Source: Candidatus Nitrotoga sp. LAW (lineage in GTDB: Bacteria; Pseudomonadota; Gammaproteobacteria; Burkholderiales; Gallionellaceae). Taken from it: a stretch of 64,000 bases of DNA. This document shows, one piece after another, positions 3,762 to 63,860 of this stretch. Numbering within the stretch: position 1 is the stretch's first letter; every line of letters begins with the position of its first letter. The stretch lies in assembly GCA_003402315.1 (NCBI GenBank), contig QFXI01000018.1:119015-183014 (forward strand), given 5' to 3'. The position numbers were made by a program, and so were the translations under genes. Under the pieces are notes generated by a model. The model was not told the DNA's origin, made no database searches, and saw only the letters and a program-made list of their open reading frames with translations.

Positions 3762-3970
3762 GGCACTTCCTAAAACAAAAATTAGTAAACTTCGAAGGGC
3801 GCGAATTTTATGTCAAAAGACCAGCTTCTGTCAAACACATTTGATACTTCGGTTCCGGTACTAAGAATGAAGTGTTGTTTATATAACACGCTTTTCTTGG
3901 CGCTTTAAACTCAATTAAATCAATCAGTCAGGCAATTGATAATTCTATCCTCTTAACGGTTAAAGCATTA

Positions 3971-5491
3971 TTACTGGTTAGCGGCTAGATCAAGGTCGAG
4001 CTGACTGGCATCATCGTCCGTATTTACCTTGCCATTCTCACGCGCTGCTTCAATGCCATCGAGGTACTCTAATGTAATATCTCCGGTGATGTAATCTCCA
4101 TCAAAGCATGAAGCGTCAAAATATTGAATATCCCGATTCGTCTTACGCACTGCCGTTTTGAGGTCATCGAGATCCTGATAAATCAATCTGTCGGCACCGA
4201 TTTCACGGCAAATTTCCTCATCACTGCGGCCGGTGGCAATCAGCTCTTTGCGGCTCGGCATGTCTATGCCATACACATTAGGAAAACGCACCGGGGGTGC
4301 GGCGGAGGCGAAATATACTTTGCGCGCCCCGGCATCACGCGCCATTTGAACAATTTCACGGCTAGTGGTACCGCGTACGATGGAATCGTCTACCAACAAG
4401 ACATTTTTATCCTTAAATTCCACGCTAATTGCATTTAATTTCTGACGGACCGATTTTTTCCGCATTGCCTGTCCCGGCATGATGAAGGTACGCCCAATAT
4501 AACGGTTTTTCACGAAGCCTTCGCGAAACGAGATACCCAAACGATTAGCCAATTGCAAGGCACTAGGGCGGCTGGAGTCTGGAATGGGGATAACGACATC
4601 AATATCATGTTGCTGCCATTCGCGGGTAATTTTGTCGGCCAGGTTTTCACCCATATTCAAGCGTGTCTCATATACCGAAATCCCATTAATTACCGAATCT
4701 GGACGCGCCAGATAAACATACTCAAAAATGCATGGGTTAAGGGTTGGATTTTCTGCACATTGCTGGCTATGAAGATTTCCATCAAAGTCAACAAATACCG
4801 ATTCACCTGGTGCAATATCGCGGAGAAACTTAAAACCTAGCGTATCCAATGCCACACTTTCCGAAGCAATCAAATATTCCGTGCCATTTTCAGTTTGATG
4901 GCTACCTAATACCAGTGGCCGAATACCATAAACATCGCGGAACGCCAGCAGGCCATAACCCGCAATCATTGCCACCACTGCGTAAGCACCACGGCAACGA
5001 CGATGCACCCCGGATACGGCGTCAAAGATGTTCTTAATGTCAAGACGATAACGCATTGTGGAATTGGCTTGCAACTCATGCGCAAGCACATTGAGCAGCA
5101 CTTCTGAATCGGAATTGGTGTTTACGTGTCGCCTGTCTTCAAGAAATAATTCTTGTTGCAGTTGCTCGGTATTGGTCAAGTTGCCGTTATGTCCAAGCAC
5201 AATGCCGAATGGCGAGTTGACATAAAATGGCTGTGCTTCATTGTGATCGATGGCGGAACCCGCAGTAGGGTAACGCACATGGGCTATGCCCGCATTGCCG
5301 CGCAGCGCCCTCATGTTACGCGTCCGGAACACATCGCGTACTAGGCCATTACCCTTGTGCAAGTGAAAAGTATTGCCTTCAATAGTGGCAATACCTGCGG
5401 CATCCTGCCCGCGATGCTGCAATACTAATAAGCCATCATATAGAACTTGATTGGCCGATGTTTGCGCGACAATGCCTAGAATGCCACACAT
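3971..5491 (-). CDS. purF: amidophosphoribosyltransferase
   Basis: MCGILGIV N-terminal Ntn glutaminase; [22 protein letters not shown] loop. Confidence 0.98.
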
Positions 5492-6010: not shown

Positions 6011-6631
6011 CTAATACGCTGGACTTACCGTTGGTTTCAGTCCTTGCGCTTCCAAGTTTTTGTACACATTATCCGCAGCTTCACGCGTCGCATAAGGACC
6101 GGCACGGACACGGGTTTTCTCGCCTACTTTTTCGGTGTAAACTTTGATATTTTGTTTGCTCAATTTTTTTTGCCATTGATGCGCGGTATCAGCATTGGCA
6201 AATGCGCCGACCTGTACCACAAAACCAGAGTGTGGTGTGGGTTGTCTATTCTCTATGTGAATATCCCCAGCTGATTTAACTTCAGGCTTGACTGGATGGG
6301 ATTTACTTTCAATCACTTGCGATGCCGCGCCCCCCTGATCTGTAACGACAGGTTGGCTGGGTATTGTTGGAGCAGGAATAGCAACCGGTGAAGAAGCCAC
6401 AGGAACGGAGATAGGTGCTGACGGCATGTGCATATTAGGCATGAACTCACCTACCTTATCTTTGTCCGGAATGCGCAACTCAATATCCTGGCCCCCTAAT
6501 TTGGGTTCGCTATCTAACACCATGGGCAGCAGCACCACAATTACGATGACGAGTGCCACTGCGCCAATCAACCGGCGTCTTGCCCGACGCTTCAGACTGA
6601 CTTCATCATCCATGAGTTGCTTTGCCATCAT
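6011..6631 (-). CDS. SPOR domain-containing protein (DedD-like)
   Basis: N-terminal cytoplasmic tail + TM, C-terminal SPOR repeat (GFVVQVGAFANADTAHQWQKKL...TRVRAGPYATREAAD); between cvpA and folC. Confidence 0.9.
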   Translation of the reverse strand: MMAKQLMDDEVSLKRRARRRLIGAVALVIVIVVLLPMVLDSEPKLGGQDIELRIPDKDKVGEFMPNMHMPSAPISVPVASSPVAIPAPTIPSQPVVTDQGGAASQVIESKSHPVKPEVKSAGDIHIENRQPTPHSGFVVQVGAFANADTAHQWQKKLSKQNIKVYTEKVGEKTRVRAGPYATREAADNVYKNLEAQGLKPTVSPAY

Positions 6632-57524: not shown

Positions 57525-59165
57525 CTAGTTGGCTGCGCCGGAAAATAATACTCTTTGTCGTGATTGTTCAGTGTTACCGAAATAAATATTCCGCCAGGTA
57601 TCGTCCACCTTTAGAAATTGCGGTGTCACATTGGGATTACCCTGATTTTTTGCCAACCATTCGCGAAATGCATAGTGATTCCAGAGACGGAAGAACTCCG
57701 TCAGATAGATGTCTGCCACAGTCGTGTTGCCTTGAATCACCAGCATGTTTTCGTCGTTAGCATTAGTTGAGGCATCCGAAAAATTCGCCGATCCTGAGAT
57801 CACAATTGGATTCGATCCCAACGGATCGATCAGCATAAATTTTGTATGAATATACGGCACATGCGAATTCAAGCTACTCAACCTCTCCTTTAGCCACTTA
57901 TCAAAACTATTTACGCGAATCATGCTGCCGATCGCAAAACGGTTAAAGGGCAATTTCCGCAACCCTAATACCTCCGCTTCTGGTTCGGGCCGATTGCCAT
58001 CATTATCGAGCAAGGCATAACGCAACCCGCCAAAGGGCTTATCAAATACGGGGACAAAGGCTTTGTTGATACCAAAAGCAAAAGTCATGCAAAGCATCGA
58101 TTGCGCGGCGGCGGCCTGTTCGGCATACCATGAGAGTAGCTTTACGCCTGAGCGGGGGCTAAAGAGCGCGCTGGTTGCTTGCCTTGGTGAACTGCCGGGG
58201 GCGGGCGTCGGCGTCAATGTTTCCACACCAGGGCGCAACAAGGGAAACTTAGGATCAACTGCAAGTAAGTTCCAGTAATCATGATAGCTACTTGCAACGC
58301 CCATATCGTTCACTACGTGTCCGACATTCGAATGTCCGAAGATGCCGCCATCAGTGATATTTGTCGAACCCGTCCAAACTGCCTGCGGCTGATTATTCTT
58401 TAACAACACGATAAATTTATTGTGTGCGATGGCGCTTGGATTTGCGGTACGCTGCCTGCATAGACCGTCGATACCCGCGTTGAGCACCGCTGCCTTATTA
58501 AGTGCGGATACCTTTTCGTCACGGCCGTCGTATAGGATGCTCACGTCAACCCCGCGATCCTTGGCCGATTTCAACGCCTTTAAAACAGTTTCGTTGGTGA
58601 ACTGGTAAACGGCCACGCGTAGCGCCCACTGACAATTCTTCGCACGTAGCAAAAACTCGAGCAGCGCTTCCATTAGGCCGCGCGAAAGCCAATCGAAGGC
58701 TGGTTTACCCACTATTTCTGGACTTTTGTTTTTGAAGCGGCGGGCGTATTCCTGGCTAGCGGCGGCGCCGCGATTGAACCACACTTCGTGTAAGCCATTG
58801 TCTTCCTTTTCAGTTTGCACGCGCACCTCGATCTCATCATCTTCAATCAAGCTCTTGGGCGAACCCTTCAGTGCCACTACGCGATAGGTATAATCGTAGC
58901 CCGGCTTGGCCGTGAAATCGGACCATGTGAAACCTTGCACCGGATGGCAACGCAACGAGGCCTTGTCTGTACCTGGGTCGGTTTCGGCGAATACCTTTAT
59001 GCCCTCCAGCCAATAGGCCTCGCCCTCGGTATGATCCGTGCGATGAACGGCAAATCCCAGGACGTGGCGCGAATCGGCTTTCGTCATACTCCAGCCAAGC
59101 AGCACCACATGCGTACCAGCAACTGCCTGTACCGTCAATTTGCCAAGTTGCTTGGTAACGCGCAT
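57525..59165 (-). CDS. phospholipase D-like domain-containing protein
   Basis: Two HxK sites (HNKFIVLLKN...GSTNITDGG; HTKFMLIDPLGSNPIVISGSANFSDAS); N-terminal beta-rich region. Confidence 0.88.
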   Translation of the reverse strand: MRVTKQLGKLTVQAVAGTHVVLLGWSMTKADSRHVLGFAVHRTDHTEGEAYWLEGIKVFAETDPGTDKASLRCHPVQGFTWSDFTAKPGYDYTYRVVALKGSPKSLIEDDEIEVRVQTEKEDNGLHEVWFNRGAAASQEYARRFKNKSPEIVGKPAFDWLSRGLMEALLEFLLRAKNCQWALRVAVYQFTNETVLKALKSAKDRGVDVSILYDGRDEKVSALNKAAVLNAGIDGLCRQRTANPSAIAHNKFIVLLKNNQPQAVWTGSTNITDGGIFGHSNVGHVVNDMGVASSYHDYWNLLAVDPKFPLLRPGVETLTPTPAPGSSPRQATSALFSPRSGVKLLSWYAEQAAAAQSMLCMTFAFGINKAFVPVFDKPFGGLRYALLDNDGNRPEPEAEVLGLRKLPFNRFAIGSMIRVNSFDKWLKERLSSLNSHVPYIHTKFMLIDPLGSNPIVISGSANFSDASTNANDENMLVIQGNTTVADIYLTEFFRLWNHYAFREWLAKNQGNPNVTPQFLKVDDTWRNIYFGNTEQSRQRVLFSGAAN

Positions 59166-59174
59166 GACACACTC

Positions 59175-60212
59175 CTAAAAGACAATTGTCCAACCGGGTT
59201 GATTGGCTTGTTCCTTGGTATAGGAAACGCCATGCACCTTCAAGCCGTTCTGATTCAACAGAGTGATGATGCCCCCCTTATTAGACAAGACCATGGGTGC
59301 TTGCACGTCGACGCGCAGCATGGCGCCCGCGTCGAGAGCGCCGCTCAGGGACATTTTCGCTTTTTGCTTATCGGCCATATGCCAGCCAGCCAGCGGGACA
59401 AGGCGATCACTTGCATTCAATATGTAAACCCATTCCATTTCTGGCGAAGCCTTCGAATTAACCATCGCCGCGACAATGCGGATCAATCCATCGGGTGCTG
59501 TATCTGTCGGTTGCGGCACAATGGGATCGGGATTTACTGGTTCGCCATCGTCCGTACCACTTAATGTGTGTCCGGTGACATCGTTGGTGTGCCAGCTTTG
59601 CGACTGAAACTTTAGAAAGACAGCCGTCCACTGTTGTTGATTGGGAAATTGAAATAACAGGCCGCCATCCTGCCACACACCATCGTCCTGTACGAAGCTG
59701 CCCACATTGCCCTGGTTCATGTGAATGTCGTGAATACCATTACCAGGCACGAAGCCGAAGTACTTATCCGCCTTGTTATTTTCTGGTCCCCAACGTTCGC
59801 CGAAAGCATAAACCAGCGCCTCTTCGTCAGCCATTGCACGCTGCACAATCTGATCAAGCTTCTCGTTCAAATCGTTATCAGGGCCGGGCAGAGAGTGCGG
59901 GAGCGGTGTCATCATTCCCGGCTGCATCAGGTTGCCGCGGATCAGATCTAGCGCGCCTGAGGCGGGATTTGGCGCAAGCGGGCTGAAGCCACTTGGCAAA
60001 ACGGCGACAACGGATGTGAGCGGATGCACGAAATGCGACTTGACATAATACATCAGCTCCGAAGGAGCCAATTGCGATTTCACATTGATTGCAATACGGT
60101 AATTAGTACCAGTCTCATCCACAATGTGGACTTGGTAGTGCGGTGAAGATCCTGAACCCAAACGGCGGGCAATAACCCTACCTTTCAAAACACCATAAGT
60201 CTTGAGTGGCAT
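59175..60212 (-). CDS. DUF2278 (YukJ-like) protein with C-terminal lamin-tail-like domain
   Basis: YGVLKGRVIAR...PHYQVHIVD, FGFVPGNGIHDIHMNQGN; C-terminal EWVYILNASDRLVPLAGWHMADKQKAKMSLSGALDAGAMLRVDVQAPMVLSNKGGIITLLNQNGLKVHGVSYT. Confidence 0.85.
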   Translation of the reverse strand: MPLKTYGVLKGRVIARRLGSGSSPHYQVHIVDETGTNYRIAINVKSQLAPSELMYYVKSHFVHPLTSVVAVLPSGFSPLAPNPASGALDLIRGNLMQPGMMTPLPHSLPGPDNDLNEKLDQIVQRAMADEEALVYAFGERWGPENNKADKYFGFVPGNGIHDIHMNQGNVGSFVQDDGVWQDGGLLFQFPNQQQWTAVFLKFQSQSWHTNDVTGHTLSGTDDGEPVNPDPIVPQPTDTAPDGLIRIVAAMVNSKASPEMEWVYILNASDRLVPLAGWHMADKQKAKMSLSGALDAGAMLRVDVQAPMVLSNKGGIITLLNQNGLKVHGVSYTKEQANQPGWTIVF

Positions 60213-60824: not shown

Positions 60825-62636
60825 TCAGCTAACACGCCCCAAGAGGACGTCATGTTCAGTGGCTTGCGCCGGAACAGTTTCATGCGATGCAAGCCAGGCA
60901 TGCACCTGGGCGACCACTGCGGCGCCTTCACCCACAGCGGCGGCGACACGTTTGGTTGAGCTGGCACGTGCATCGCCAATCGCGAATACTCCCGGTACCG
61001 ACGTTTCGAGCGGCAGGGGATGATGATCGTTTTTCAGGTGCGTCAAACGCGTGTCATCGGTCGGCGGCAGATCGATCCCGGTGCAGACGAATCCCTTATC
61101 ATTGACATTCACACCGCAATTCTCCAACCAATCAGTGTTCGGATCGGCACCCACGAACAGAAAAATACGCTGAATGGATTTAGTCTGTTTACTGCCGTCT
61201 TTGCGATTGTGCCACTGCACACTATTCACGCCTTCATCGCAACCTTCTATTCCCACGATCTCTGATTCCGTATACAGCGTAACGTTCGCCAGCATTCCGA
61301 TACGGTCGATGAGATATTTCGACATACTTTTTGCAAGGTCGGAGCCGCGAATCAAATGATGGACGTGCGCCGCATGGCTGGCCAAGAATACGATTGCCTG
61401 TCCGGCCGCATTGCCGCCACCCACGAGCACGACTTCCTCCTGGCCGCATAGCGCGGCCTCGATCGGCGAAGCCCAGTAATAAATGCCGCGGCCTTCGTAT
61501 TTCTCAAGTTCGGGTATACCAGGACGCCGATATTTTGCGCCTGTCGCGATAACCACGGTTTTTGCCAAAACCTGTCCGCCACAATCGAGTTGAAGCGCAC
61601 GAGGAAAGCGTGTGCAATCGAGCGACATCACTTCAACGGGCACCACCATTTCAGCACCGAATTTCAGCGCCTGAACATAAGCGCGTCCGGCCAGCGCTTG
61701 ACCAGAGATACCGGTCGGAAAACCAAGGTAATTTTCAATTCTCGCGCTCGCACCTGCTTGGCCGCCAAACGCATGAGTGTCGAGTACCAGCACGGAAAGC
61801 CCTTCCGACGCGGCATATACCGCGCAGGCAAGACCAGCGGGGCCGGCGCCAACGATCGCAACGTCGTAGACATGGTCAAGGCTCAGATCAATATACAAAC
61901 CGAGGCAACGCGCAAGCTCCCTTTCGGTGGGACACTTAAGAACCGTTCCATCGGAACAAACAACTAGCGGTAATTCATCTGGACGTGGTTGGTGGAGCTT
62001 CACCACATCTTCCGCGACGCTATCCAGTGCTGGATCCAACACAAGATGAGGATGGCCGTTCCTTGAAAGAAATCCCTGCAACCGCACCATACCCGCGCTG
62101 CCAGGGGCACCGATCAATAACGGGCCGCCTCCGCCGGTTTCGATCAATCCCATACGCCGCAGGATCAGGGCTCTCATAATACGTTCCCCGAGCTCTGCCT
62201 CAGCCACGACCACTGCGCGCAAGGAAGGTGGATCTATCACCAGGGCTTCAACTACCTCAAGGGCGCGTCCAGAAGCAAGCGGGGGACGGCCCGAAAGCTG
62301 GCCGACTTCTCCCGCAAAATTGCCCGGCCCGCTTTCAACGATGGGAATCTCGATACCCAGGCCATTTTTGCGCGTCGTCAAGATGCGCCCACTCAGCAAA
62401 ACGACCATGCCCACTGCGGGCCTGCTGGGATCAAACAATATTTCGCCGGGCTGCCAAGTGCACACCGTGCCAAAACGCCGTAACCGGTTAATTTCTGCAG
62501 GGGTAAGCTTAAAAAACATCTGCTCACGACGCGATGCCAAGCTTGGGGGCAAGGGCGCATCTGCCGCATTGGCTGAAGCGTCGTCCACTTGACCAGACGC
62601 TGATGAGAGCAAACCGTCAGTAACTTCGTTTATCAC
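60825..62636 (-). CDS. cNMP-binding-domain/FAD-dependent oxidoreductase (thioredoxin-reductase-like fold)
   Basis: N-terminal CRP-like cyclic nucleotide-binding region, then VAIVGAGPAGLACAVYAASEGLSVLVLD...GGQAGASARIENYLGFP and VVLVGGGNAAGQA; GTG start overlapping the upstream TGA (GTGA). Confidence 0.88.
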   Translation of the reverse strand: MINEVTDGLLSSASGQVDDASANAADAPLPPSLASRREQMFFKLTPAEINRLRRFGTVCTWQPGEILFDPSRPAVGMVVLLSGRILTTRKNGLGIEIPIVESGPGNFAGEVGQLSGRPPLASGRALEVVEALVIDPPSLRAVVVAEAELGERIMRALILRRMGLIETGGGGPLLIGAPGSAGMVRLQGFLSRNGHPHLVLDPALDSVAEDVVKLHQPRPDELPLVVCSDGTVLKCPTERELARCLGLYIDLSLDHVYDVAIVGAGPAGLACAVYAASEGLSVLVLDTHAFGGQAGASARIENYLGFPTGISGQALAGRAYVQALKFGAEMVVPVEVMSLDCTRFPRALQLDCGGQVLAKTVVIATGAKYRRPGIPELEKYEGRGIYYWASPIEAALCGQEEVVLVGGGNAAGQAIVFLASHAAHVHHLIRGSDLAKSMSKYLIDRIGMLANVTLYTESEIVGIEGCDEGVNSVQWHNRKDGSKQTKSIQRIFLFVGADPNTDWLENCGVNVNDKGFVCTGIDLPPTDDTRLTHLKNDHHPLPLETSVPGVFAIGDARASSTKRVAAAVGEGAAVVAQVHAWLASHETVPAQATEHDVLLGRVS

Positions 62637-62962
62637 CGTTTGCGATCCTTGAAAGAAACCGATGAAGGGTGGAGGTGTGCGGTCTGGTTTCCATTGAAAT
62701 CGAGCATCTCCTGATCGATGTAGCACCAGCCCCACGGGTCCGGCGGATCGTAAGATTCCATAATCGGATGGCCGGTCGCATGATAATGCTTGGTCGCATG
62801 TTTGTTTACCGAACTATCACAGCAGCCGACATGGCCACACTGGCGGCATAGGCGAAGGTGCACCCATGAGTCACCGGTCTTCAGGCAATCTTCGCAGCCC
62901 TCCGCAGAGGGGGTGACTTCGCGAATACTATCGAAATGCGTACAAGCCATACAACCTCCCAA
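62633..62962 (-). CDS. UBP-type zinc-finger protein
   Basis: CTHF...CEDCLKTGDSWVHLRLCRQCGHVGCCDSSVNKHATKHYHATGHPIMES, a ZnF-UBP-like Cys/His pattern. Confidence 0.9.
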   Translation of the reverse strand: MGGCMACTHFDSIREVTPSAEGCEDCLKTGDSWVHLRLCRQCGHVGCCDSSVNKHATKHYHATGHPIMESYDPPDPWGWCYIDQEMLDFNGNQTAHLHPSSVSFKDRKR

Positions 62963-63259: not shown

Positions 63260-63860
63260 TTACTTTCCGTTAATCACCAGGATGTCATGCTGATCGGTAT
63301 TTGTAACGAGTTCGGGGGCGTTCGTACCGGACTGGACAGAACCGCTTACCAAGTGGAAATGATTGTCAATAAAATCGCCGGCCAACCCGTGTCTGGGTAT
63401 GGACAATTGAATGCGTTGGCTGAACCACGTGCGACAGGAAGTGGCGCGAGCACCTGTTCGGTCTGCGGGCCATACTCCCATGACTGATTAACCGGAACCC
63501 ACGTAGGTTTTCCTTTCTCCGGCAGCGTGGAGCCCCCAAACATGTAAATGCGACCTTTCGCTTCAGTAAGCGCTACATGATGGAGGCATGCGGGGCATGT
63601 TGCCCTTGCGGCGTCCACTTATCGGTAGCCGGATCGTACTCCATCACCATCCTCATTGCCTTCCAGTCCAACCCCAGTTCACCAAAAACGTATAGCTTAC
63701 CTAGCTGACCGACCGCGATACCGTAGCTCTCCTCTGCGCCTTCGGGTATGGGTGCGACTAACTTCCATTCCCCTGCAAACGTTAAATTAGCGGTCAGAAA
63801 CCATGCGAGTATCAAGTCCCCTATGTTCCATAGGATTTGCCATTCTTGATCTACTGCCAC
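63260..63860 (-). pseudogene. Kelch-repeat protein pseudogene
   Basis: Three frames each encode Kelch pieces: GKLYVFGELGLDWKAMRMVMEYDPATDKWTPQG / HHVALTEAKGRIYMFGGSTLPEKGKPTWVPVNQSWEYGPQTE / SIPRHGLAGDFIDNHFHLVSGSVQSG. Confidence 0.85.

Follow-up and report, generated by a model that had tools for sequence, protein, structure and literature searches.

A Widespread Bacterial Pair of a zf-UBP Zinc Finger and a Thioredoxin Reductase-Like Flavoprotein Without the CxxC Dithiol

Structure of the Locus

Near one end of the window, the whole 64,000-nt stretch of Candidatus Nitrotoga sp. LAW DNA that was analyzed, two overlapping genes on the reverse strand encode a small zinc-finger protein and a three-domain flavoprotein. 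Their features are as follows.

62633..62950, reverse strand: zf-UBP zinc-finger gene, 105 aa; ATG at 62950, TGA at 62633, GGAGG just 5′ of the ATG
60825..62636, reverse strand: three-domain flavoprotein gene, 603 aa; GTG at 62636, stop at 60825
62633..62636, reverse strand: GTGA overlap of the stop and start of the two genes, from the sequence
62211..62456, reverse strand: CRP-like (cNMP_binding fold) domain of the flavoprotein, aa 61-142; P119-L120 replace the phosphate-binding Arg-Ser/Thr
61896..62126, reverse strand: glutaredoxin-fold domain of the flavoprotein, aa 171-247; S180/M183 at the CxxC positions; from AF2, Foldseek and a profile match
60891..61868, reverse strand: thioredoxin reductase (TrxR)-like FAD/NAD(P)H module of the flavoprotein, aa 257-582; from family and structure matches
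61446..61493, reverse strand: former CxxC site, G382-R-G-I-Y-Y-W388-A-S-P391-I-E393-A-A-L-C397; from alignment of homologues

The GTGA overlap, already pointed out in a sequence-only reading of this DNA, is read directly from the letters, and overlaps of 1-4 nt, or fusion, are kept in the six other congeners holding the pair. Position 62962, given in that reading as the start of the zinc-finger gene, is an in-frame TTG four codons 5′ of the ATG. No convincing promoter or terminator was found at the gene pair. In Pfam, the small protein matches zf-UBP (PF02148; E-value 5.2e-14, 52.7 bits against a cut-off of 22.7), and the flavoprotein matches cNMP_binding (2.4e-9, aa 61-142) and Pyr_redox_2 (4.4e-34, aa 257-571).

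The TrxR-Like Module Lacks the Catalytic Dithiol

Residues 256-584 of the flavoprotein align with solved thioredoxin reductases, GRGIYYWASPIEAALC standing against SRGVSYCAVCDGAFF and W388-A-S-P391 lying opposite their CxxC. The loss of this redox pair, proposed earlier for the single protein, extends to the family: none of 72 homologues (53 aligned and 19 further) has CxxC at the site, where the family instead shares Y-x-A-[ST]-x-x-E-A-x-x-C; of the 53 aligned proteins, all have Glu393 and 50 have Cys397. The same genome encodes an ordinary TrxB that reads GKGVSACATCDGFF (CATC) and carries the NADPH motif HRRxxxR; therefore the flavoprotein is not the housekeeping thioredoxin reductase. A helix starts at the second TrxR cysteine position, and Cys397 sits at its opposite end (residues 494-500 of an AF2 model of a natural fusion of the two proteins); judged from this model, Cys397 seems not to replace the lost pair. 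A CxxC shifted to another place in the flavoprotein was considered and rejected, since none is conserved. This disposes of one hazard to the earlier claim, a CxxC elsewhere superposing on the TrxR active site, as the flavoprotein has no other CxxC and its glutaredoxin-like domain is likewise devoid of one. The FAD-binding residues are invariant in the alignment, and R430 alone remains of the NADPH-phosphate motif HRRxxxR (53/53 aligned flavoproteins); together with the missing CxxC, this pattern agrees with the earlier view of an NAD(P)H oxidoreductase lacking the TrxR dithiol.

The flavoprotein resembles low-Mr TrxB (TIGR01292) in its FAD and NAD(P)H domains, in fold (TM up to 0.94) and in sequence (~27-32% identity), but differs in the absent CxxC, in the reduction of HRRxxxR to a single Arg, in two extra N-terminal domains and in a score of 197.2 bits against the family cut-off of 343.45. 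AhpF, which gives the best Foldseek E-value, likewise has a TrxR-like module immediately preceded by thioredoxin-fold domain(s). The flavoprotein, in contrast, has one glutaredoxin-like domain instead of two thioredoxin-fold domains, lacks both CxxC pairs and carries an added CRP-like domain, and it scores 135.5 bits against the AhpF cut-off (TIGR03140) of 502.9. The AF2 model of the natural fusion has high confidence over the flavoprotein and superposes on the flavin-reducing TrxR conformation (5mh4) with a TM of 0.94, compared with 0.64 for the flavin-oxidizing conformation of the same enzyme (5mjk). The modeled pose is weak evidence for an enzyme that no longer has to move a dithiol up to the flavin, and may be the default of AF2 for the TrxR fold.

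One alternative is that the flavoprotein is a TrxR-like ferredoxin/flavodoxin-NADP reductase (FNR) and that the zinc finger is incidental. TrxR-like FNRs without CxxC are known and were often misannotated as TrxR (PMC10294844), and the flavoprotein shares with them a TrxR-like fold lacking this motif; in one locus (L118), moreover, a flavodoxin/FMN-reductase-like gene follows the flavoprotein gene. However, sequence similarity to FNRs is much lower, the family profile scoring 217 bits to TrxR and 108 bits to the best FNR, and solved FNRs have neither a CRP-like nor a glutaredoxin-like domain. Since, in addition, no ferredoxin or flavodoxin gene recurs as a neighbor and the conserved pairing described below is not incidental, this assignment is regarded as rather unlikely.

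The N-Terminal Domains Have Also Lost Their Signature Residues

The first domain was earlier described as a CRP-like cyclic nucleotide-binding region, of which the fold stands by sequence (PF00027; 37.5 bits against a cut-off of 27.5) and the binding does not. The RS/RT of Crp proteins aligns to P119-L120, none of the residues listed at position 119 for 47 flavoproteins is Arg, and position 120 is L, I, F or M. As the phosphate-binding Arg-Ser/Thr is thus missing in 47/47 aligned sequences, the suggested gating by cAMP or c-di-GMP is not upheld. A cAMP-gated thioredoxin reductase, as the NCBI names of homologues and the CRP-like fold would have it, is very improbable: two class III cyclase genes do occur in the genome, but the nucleotide contacts are gone, CxxC is missing from all homologues examined and the genome has a proper TrxB.

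The domain between the CRP-like and TrxR-like parts, taken alone, matched no Pfam family. AF2 predicts for it the order beta-alpha-beta-alpha-beta-beta-alpha with a core pLDDT of ~92 and a Pro before beta 3, as in the glutaredoxin fold. The top Foldseek matches were mycoredoxin Mrx1, glutaredoxins and NrdH, at a probability of 1.0 but E-values only near 1e-3, and the family profile of the flavoprotein independently finds Mrx1 (E-value 2e-4). The CxxC/CxxS of active glutaredoxins is replaced by S180/M183, and no aligned homologue has Cys at either position. The predicted glutaredoxin fold without its cysteines appears to be new here and previously unnoticed. In five loci (L020, L100, L102, L088, and L101), flavoprotein relatives near zf-UBP genes match only from the glutaredoxin-like domain on, the CRP-like domain being unmatched.

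The Zinc Finger Keeps Its Metal Ligands and Lacks the Ubiquitin-Pocket Arginine

Although the zf-UBP domain is familiar as a ubiquitin reader, it occurs widely in bacteria that lack ubiquitin. The closest solved structure to the window's finger is 2ida (Rhodopseudomonas palustris RPA1320; E-value 2.5e-44), a near full-length match sharing the motif CC-D-x-S; it is a structural-genomics entry. Searches of the open-licence literature yielded no paper about the pair, bacterial zf-UBP or RPA1320, and zf-UBP goes unmentioned in a 2006 survey of the prokaryotic antecedents of ubiquitin.

Among 98 bacterial fingers, C19, C22, C35, C38, C43, C44, H51, H55, and H61 are found in every sequence having a residue there (97-98 of 98), C3, H5, and C76 in 92-97, and W73, R33, and the motif CC-D-x-S show little or no variation. 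We take these Cys and His residues to be the three zinc sites of the HDAC6-type zf-UBP. The bacterial finger thus resembles the HDAC6/USP fingers in its zinc ligands and in the Trp and Tyr of the pocket: the Y1184 equivalent of HDAC6 is kept as Y77 (88 Tyr and 10 Phe of 98), as is the neighboring W75. It differs in having Asp, Ser or Gln for the pocket Arg, and in an insertion, WVHLR, which occurs in bacterial fingers only. The position of HDAC6 R1155 falls on D45 (98/98) or S46 (S/D/Q/E/N) and is never Arg or Lys. Ubiquitin binding by HDAC6 requires both R1155 and Y1184 (PMC13292185). Because the pocket Arg equivalent is missing in 98/98, ordinary ubiquitin-tail binding by the bacterial finger is unlikely on its sequence. 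Arg33, which lies in the insertion and is present in 98/98, is a candidate substitute for the lost Arg.

The Pairing Is Conserved Across Lineages

The zf-UBP gene is found in 7 of 19 congener genomes, the genome of the window included, and adjoins the flavoprotein gene each time. One congener (G012, L012:5855-7945) has the two as a single open frame of 707 codons, which rests on one assembly; at the junction several bases differ, not a single indel, and the ATG of the flavoprotein is retained. In another (G009; L127, contig 75, 799-1576), the flank is conserved, the zinc finger is absent and the flavoprotein gene has decayed, its frame broken in places; this genome is losing the module.

In an even draw of 199 Pseudomonadota genomes, all seven zf-UBP genes adjoin a flavoprotein homologue; five of them come from one genus, so that they stand for three independent lineages, and chance adjacency is estimated from gene number at ~1 in 2000 per genome. 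A wider set of 80 zf-UBP loci from many phyla was collected by running the zf-UBP profile over species genomes, and is biased to relatives of the window's finger. The flavoprotein gene lies within 300 nt in 37 of these (32 flavoprotein-first, 3 finger-first, and 2 divergent), and 31, many of them from Acidobacteriota and Chloroflexota, have none nearby despite long flanks. Pairwise divergences of finger and flavoprotein correlate with r = 0.75, a value reached in 0 of 2000 permutations with species relatedness left uncorrected; the correlation shows co-inheritance. Chance neighbors are rejected by the 7/7 adjacency and the several gene arrangements. The partnership of the two proteins, first surmised from one locus and tied to a survey of neighborhoods, is therefore borne out by the conserved adjacency in both orders and in divergent orientation, by the overlap, by the natural fusion and by the correlated divergence.

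The dependence is one-sided. The flavoprotein family occurs in 23 of the 199 genomes, and since 16 of these 23 have no zf-UBP at all, the finger is dispensable to it. In one Pseudomonadota locus without a finger (L110), the DNA past the flavoprotein gene reads EKAPYNGPIPRYC, which resembles the finger tail of relatives, KTPHDGPIPRYY, and suggests that the finger was lost secondarily. In one congener (L015), the pair is bracketed by direct repeats at 3955-4065 and 6402-6511, which match in two blocks of 91% and 74% identity, and a recombining cassette may lie behind the patchy presence in 7 of 19 genomes.

Genomic Context

Operons with the order dnaK-grpE-dnaJ-cbpM-clpB-trxA-zfUBP-flavoprotein are found on Rhodococcus and Streptomyces plasmids, and trxA stands directly 5′ of the pair in Rhodococcus, Streptomyces, and Rhodomicrobium loci. 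A Paraburkholderia plasmid carries a shortened flavoprotein gene and zf-UBP beside genes for a Clp ATPase, Hsp20, PsiE, and HdeD. Deinococcus ficus and a Phycisphaerae MAG encode fusions of the finger with a Kef-type Na+/H+ antiporter and TrkA_N (L021:4183-6216 in Deinococcus and L060:6303-8252 in Phycisphaerae, each an Na+/H+ exchanger with TrkA_N and a C-terminal zf-UBP), and one Rhizobium has an antiporter gene separating the finger gene from the flavoprotein gene. The common theme of these contexts is NAD(P)H/redox or protein damage, the stress neighbors being confined to a few lineages and absent from the window.

In the window, the neighbors of the zinc-finger and flavoprotein genes are a broken Kelch-like gene, a gene with Sel1 repeats and two paired genes, one DUF2278/LTD and one PLD. 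The DUF2278 and lamin-tail protein is encoded beside the PLD protein, which has a weak DrmC-like match, at 57525-60212 on the reverse strand, and this gene pair also stands beside the module in some congeners. The Kelch-like protein (63260-63860, reverse strand) is split across overlapping frames and is probably a pseudogene. Defence-system models gave no match to the pair, and no third gene is constant beside it across phyla. An alpha/beta hydrolase gene occurs in 16 loci, mostly of Rhizobiales; in L108, L110, L041, L046, and others, genes for a membrane protein of ~169 aa and an alpha/beta hydrolase lie 3′ of the flavoprotein gene, with or without zf-UBP. An EthD-like protein occupies the position of the finger in some loci with the small membrane protein and the hydrolase.

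Proposed Function and Meaning

On the anatomy, conserved pairing, lost motifs and predicted folds demonstrated above, the best explanation, with a probability of about 0.6, is that both genes form one module, a direct-transfer NAD(P)H-FAD reductase with a docking or regulatory zinc finger, working in a stress setting. Folded like a thioredoxin reductase, the flavoprotein would bind FAD and, very probably, NADPH. With the dithiols of both the TrxR-like module and the glutaredoxin-like domain gone, FAD would take electrons from NAD(P)H and hand them straight to an external acceptor, bypassing any protein disulfide relay. The putative acceptor could be a small molecule (e.g., a quinone or an electrophile) or a redox protein, and the CRP-like and glutaredoxin-like domains may be parts for dimerization, docking or sensing. 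The zf-UBP protein would be made by coupled translation and act as an accessory subunit, either docking on the enzyme or guiding it to a target or site; it would be neither a ubiquitin reader nor the obligatory electron acceptor. In the AF2 fusion model the finger has no alignment depth and a pLDDT mostly below 55, so that the model is silent on docking. The module probably works under oxidative, electrophile or protein-folding stress.

That the finger itself accepts the electrons, its cysteines being reduced by the flavoprotein in the manner of a thioredoxin-like client, was the original proposal and is now improbable. The tight coupling of the genes, the extra Cys (the C43-C44 pair) that 98/98 fingers carry beyond the eukaryotic zinc ligands and the trxA gene directly upstream in three genera all speak for it. 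On the other hand, the Cys and His residues match the three HDAC6-type zinc sites and are nearly invariant, as metal ligands should be, and the enzyme has no dithiol with which to begin thiol exchange; it is also usually found without the finger, and with no zf-UBP in most flavoprotein genomes (16/23) the flavoenzyme must have another acceptor.

Alternatively, the finger could be an adaptor that reads a protein tail or tag through the W75/Y77 pocket and Arg33 and delivers the reductase to chaperones or damaged proteins. The retention of W75 and Y77 (or Phe), the invariant R33 in the bacterial-only insertion and the DnaK/ClpB operons are in its favor, but the placement of R33 in the pocket is a prediction from sequence, no bacterial tag partner is encoded nearby and chaperone genes accompany the pair in just a few lineages, which leaves this role a minority possibility. 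Equally speculative is a broader form, in which a two-part module of four domains has lost the textbook residues of each family (those for the ubiquitin tail, the cyclic nucleotide, the glutaredoxin dithiol and the TrxR dithiol) and kept FAD/NAD(P)H binding, while the finger, its W/Y/R33 pocket now recognizing some new bacterial ligand, directs or gates the direct-transfer flavin reductase. If this is true, zf-UBP would have a ubiquitin-free role in redox quality control in bacteria.

Returning to the preferred reading, a reductase with a docking or regulatory finger, the pair is a real and widespread module, unstudied as far as the open-licence literature shows. Public records name such partner enzymes ‘cyclic nucleotide-binding domain-containing thioredoxin-disulfide reductase’, a misleading label for proteins with neither the dithiol nor the cyclic-nucleotide contacts. 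Homologues of the pair lie in some cases within plasmid-borne chaperone/Clp stress clusters, so that the function is testable by simple deletions in laboratory strains, and a stable partner provides a concrete handle on the role of zf-UBP in bacteria free of ubiquitin.
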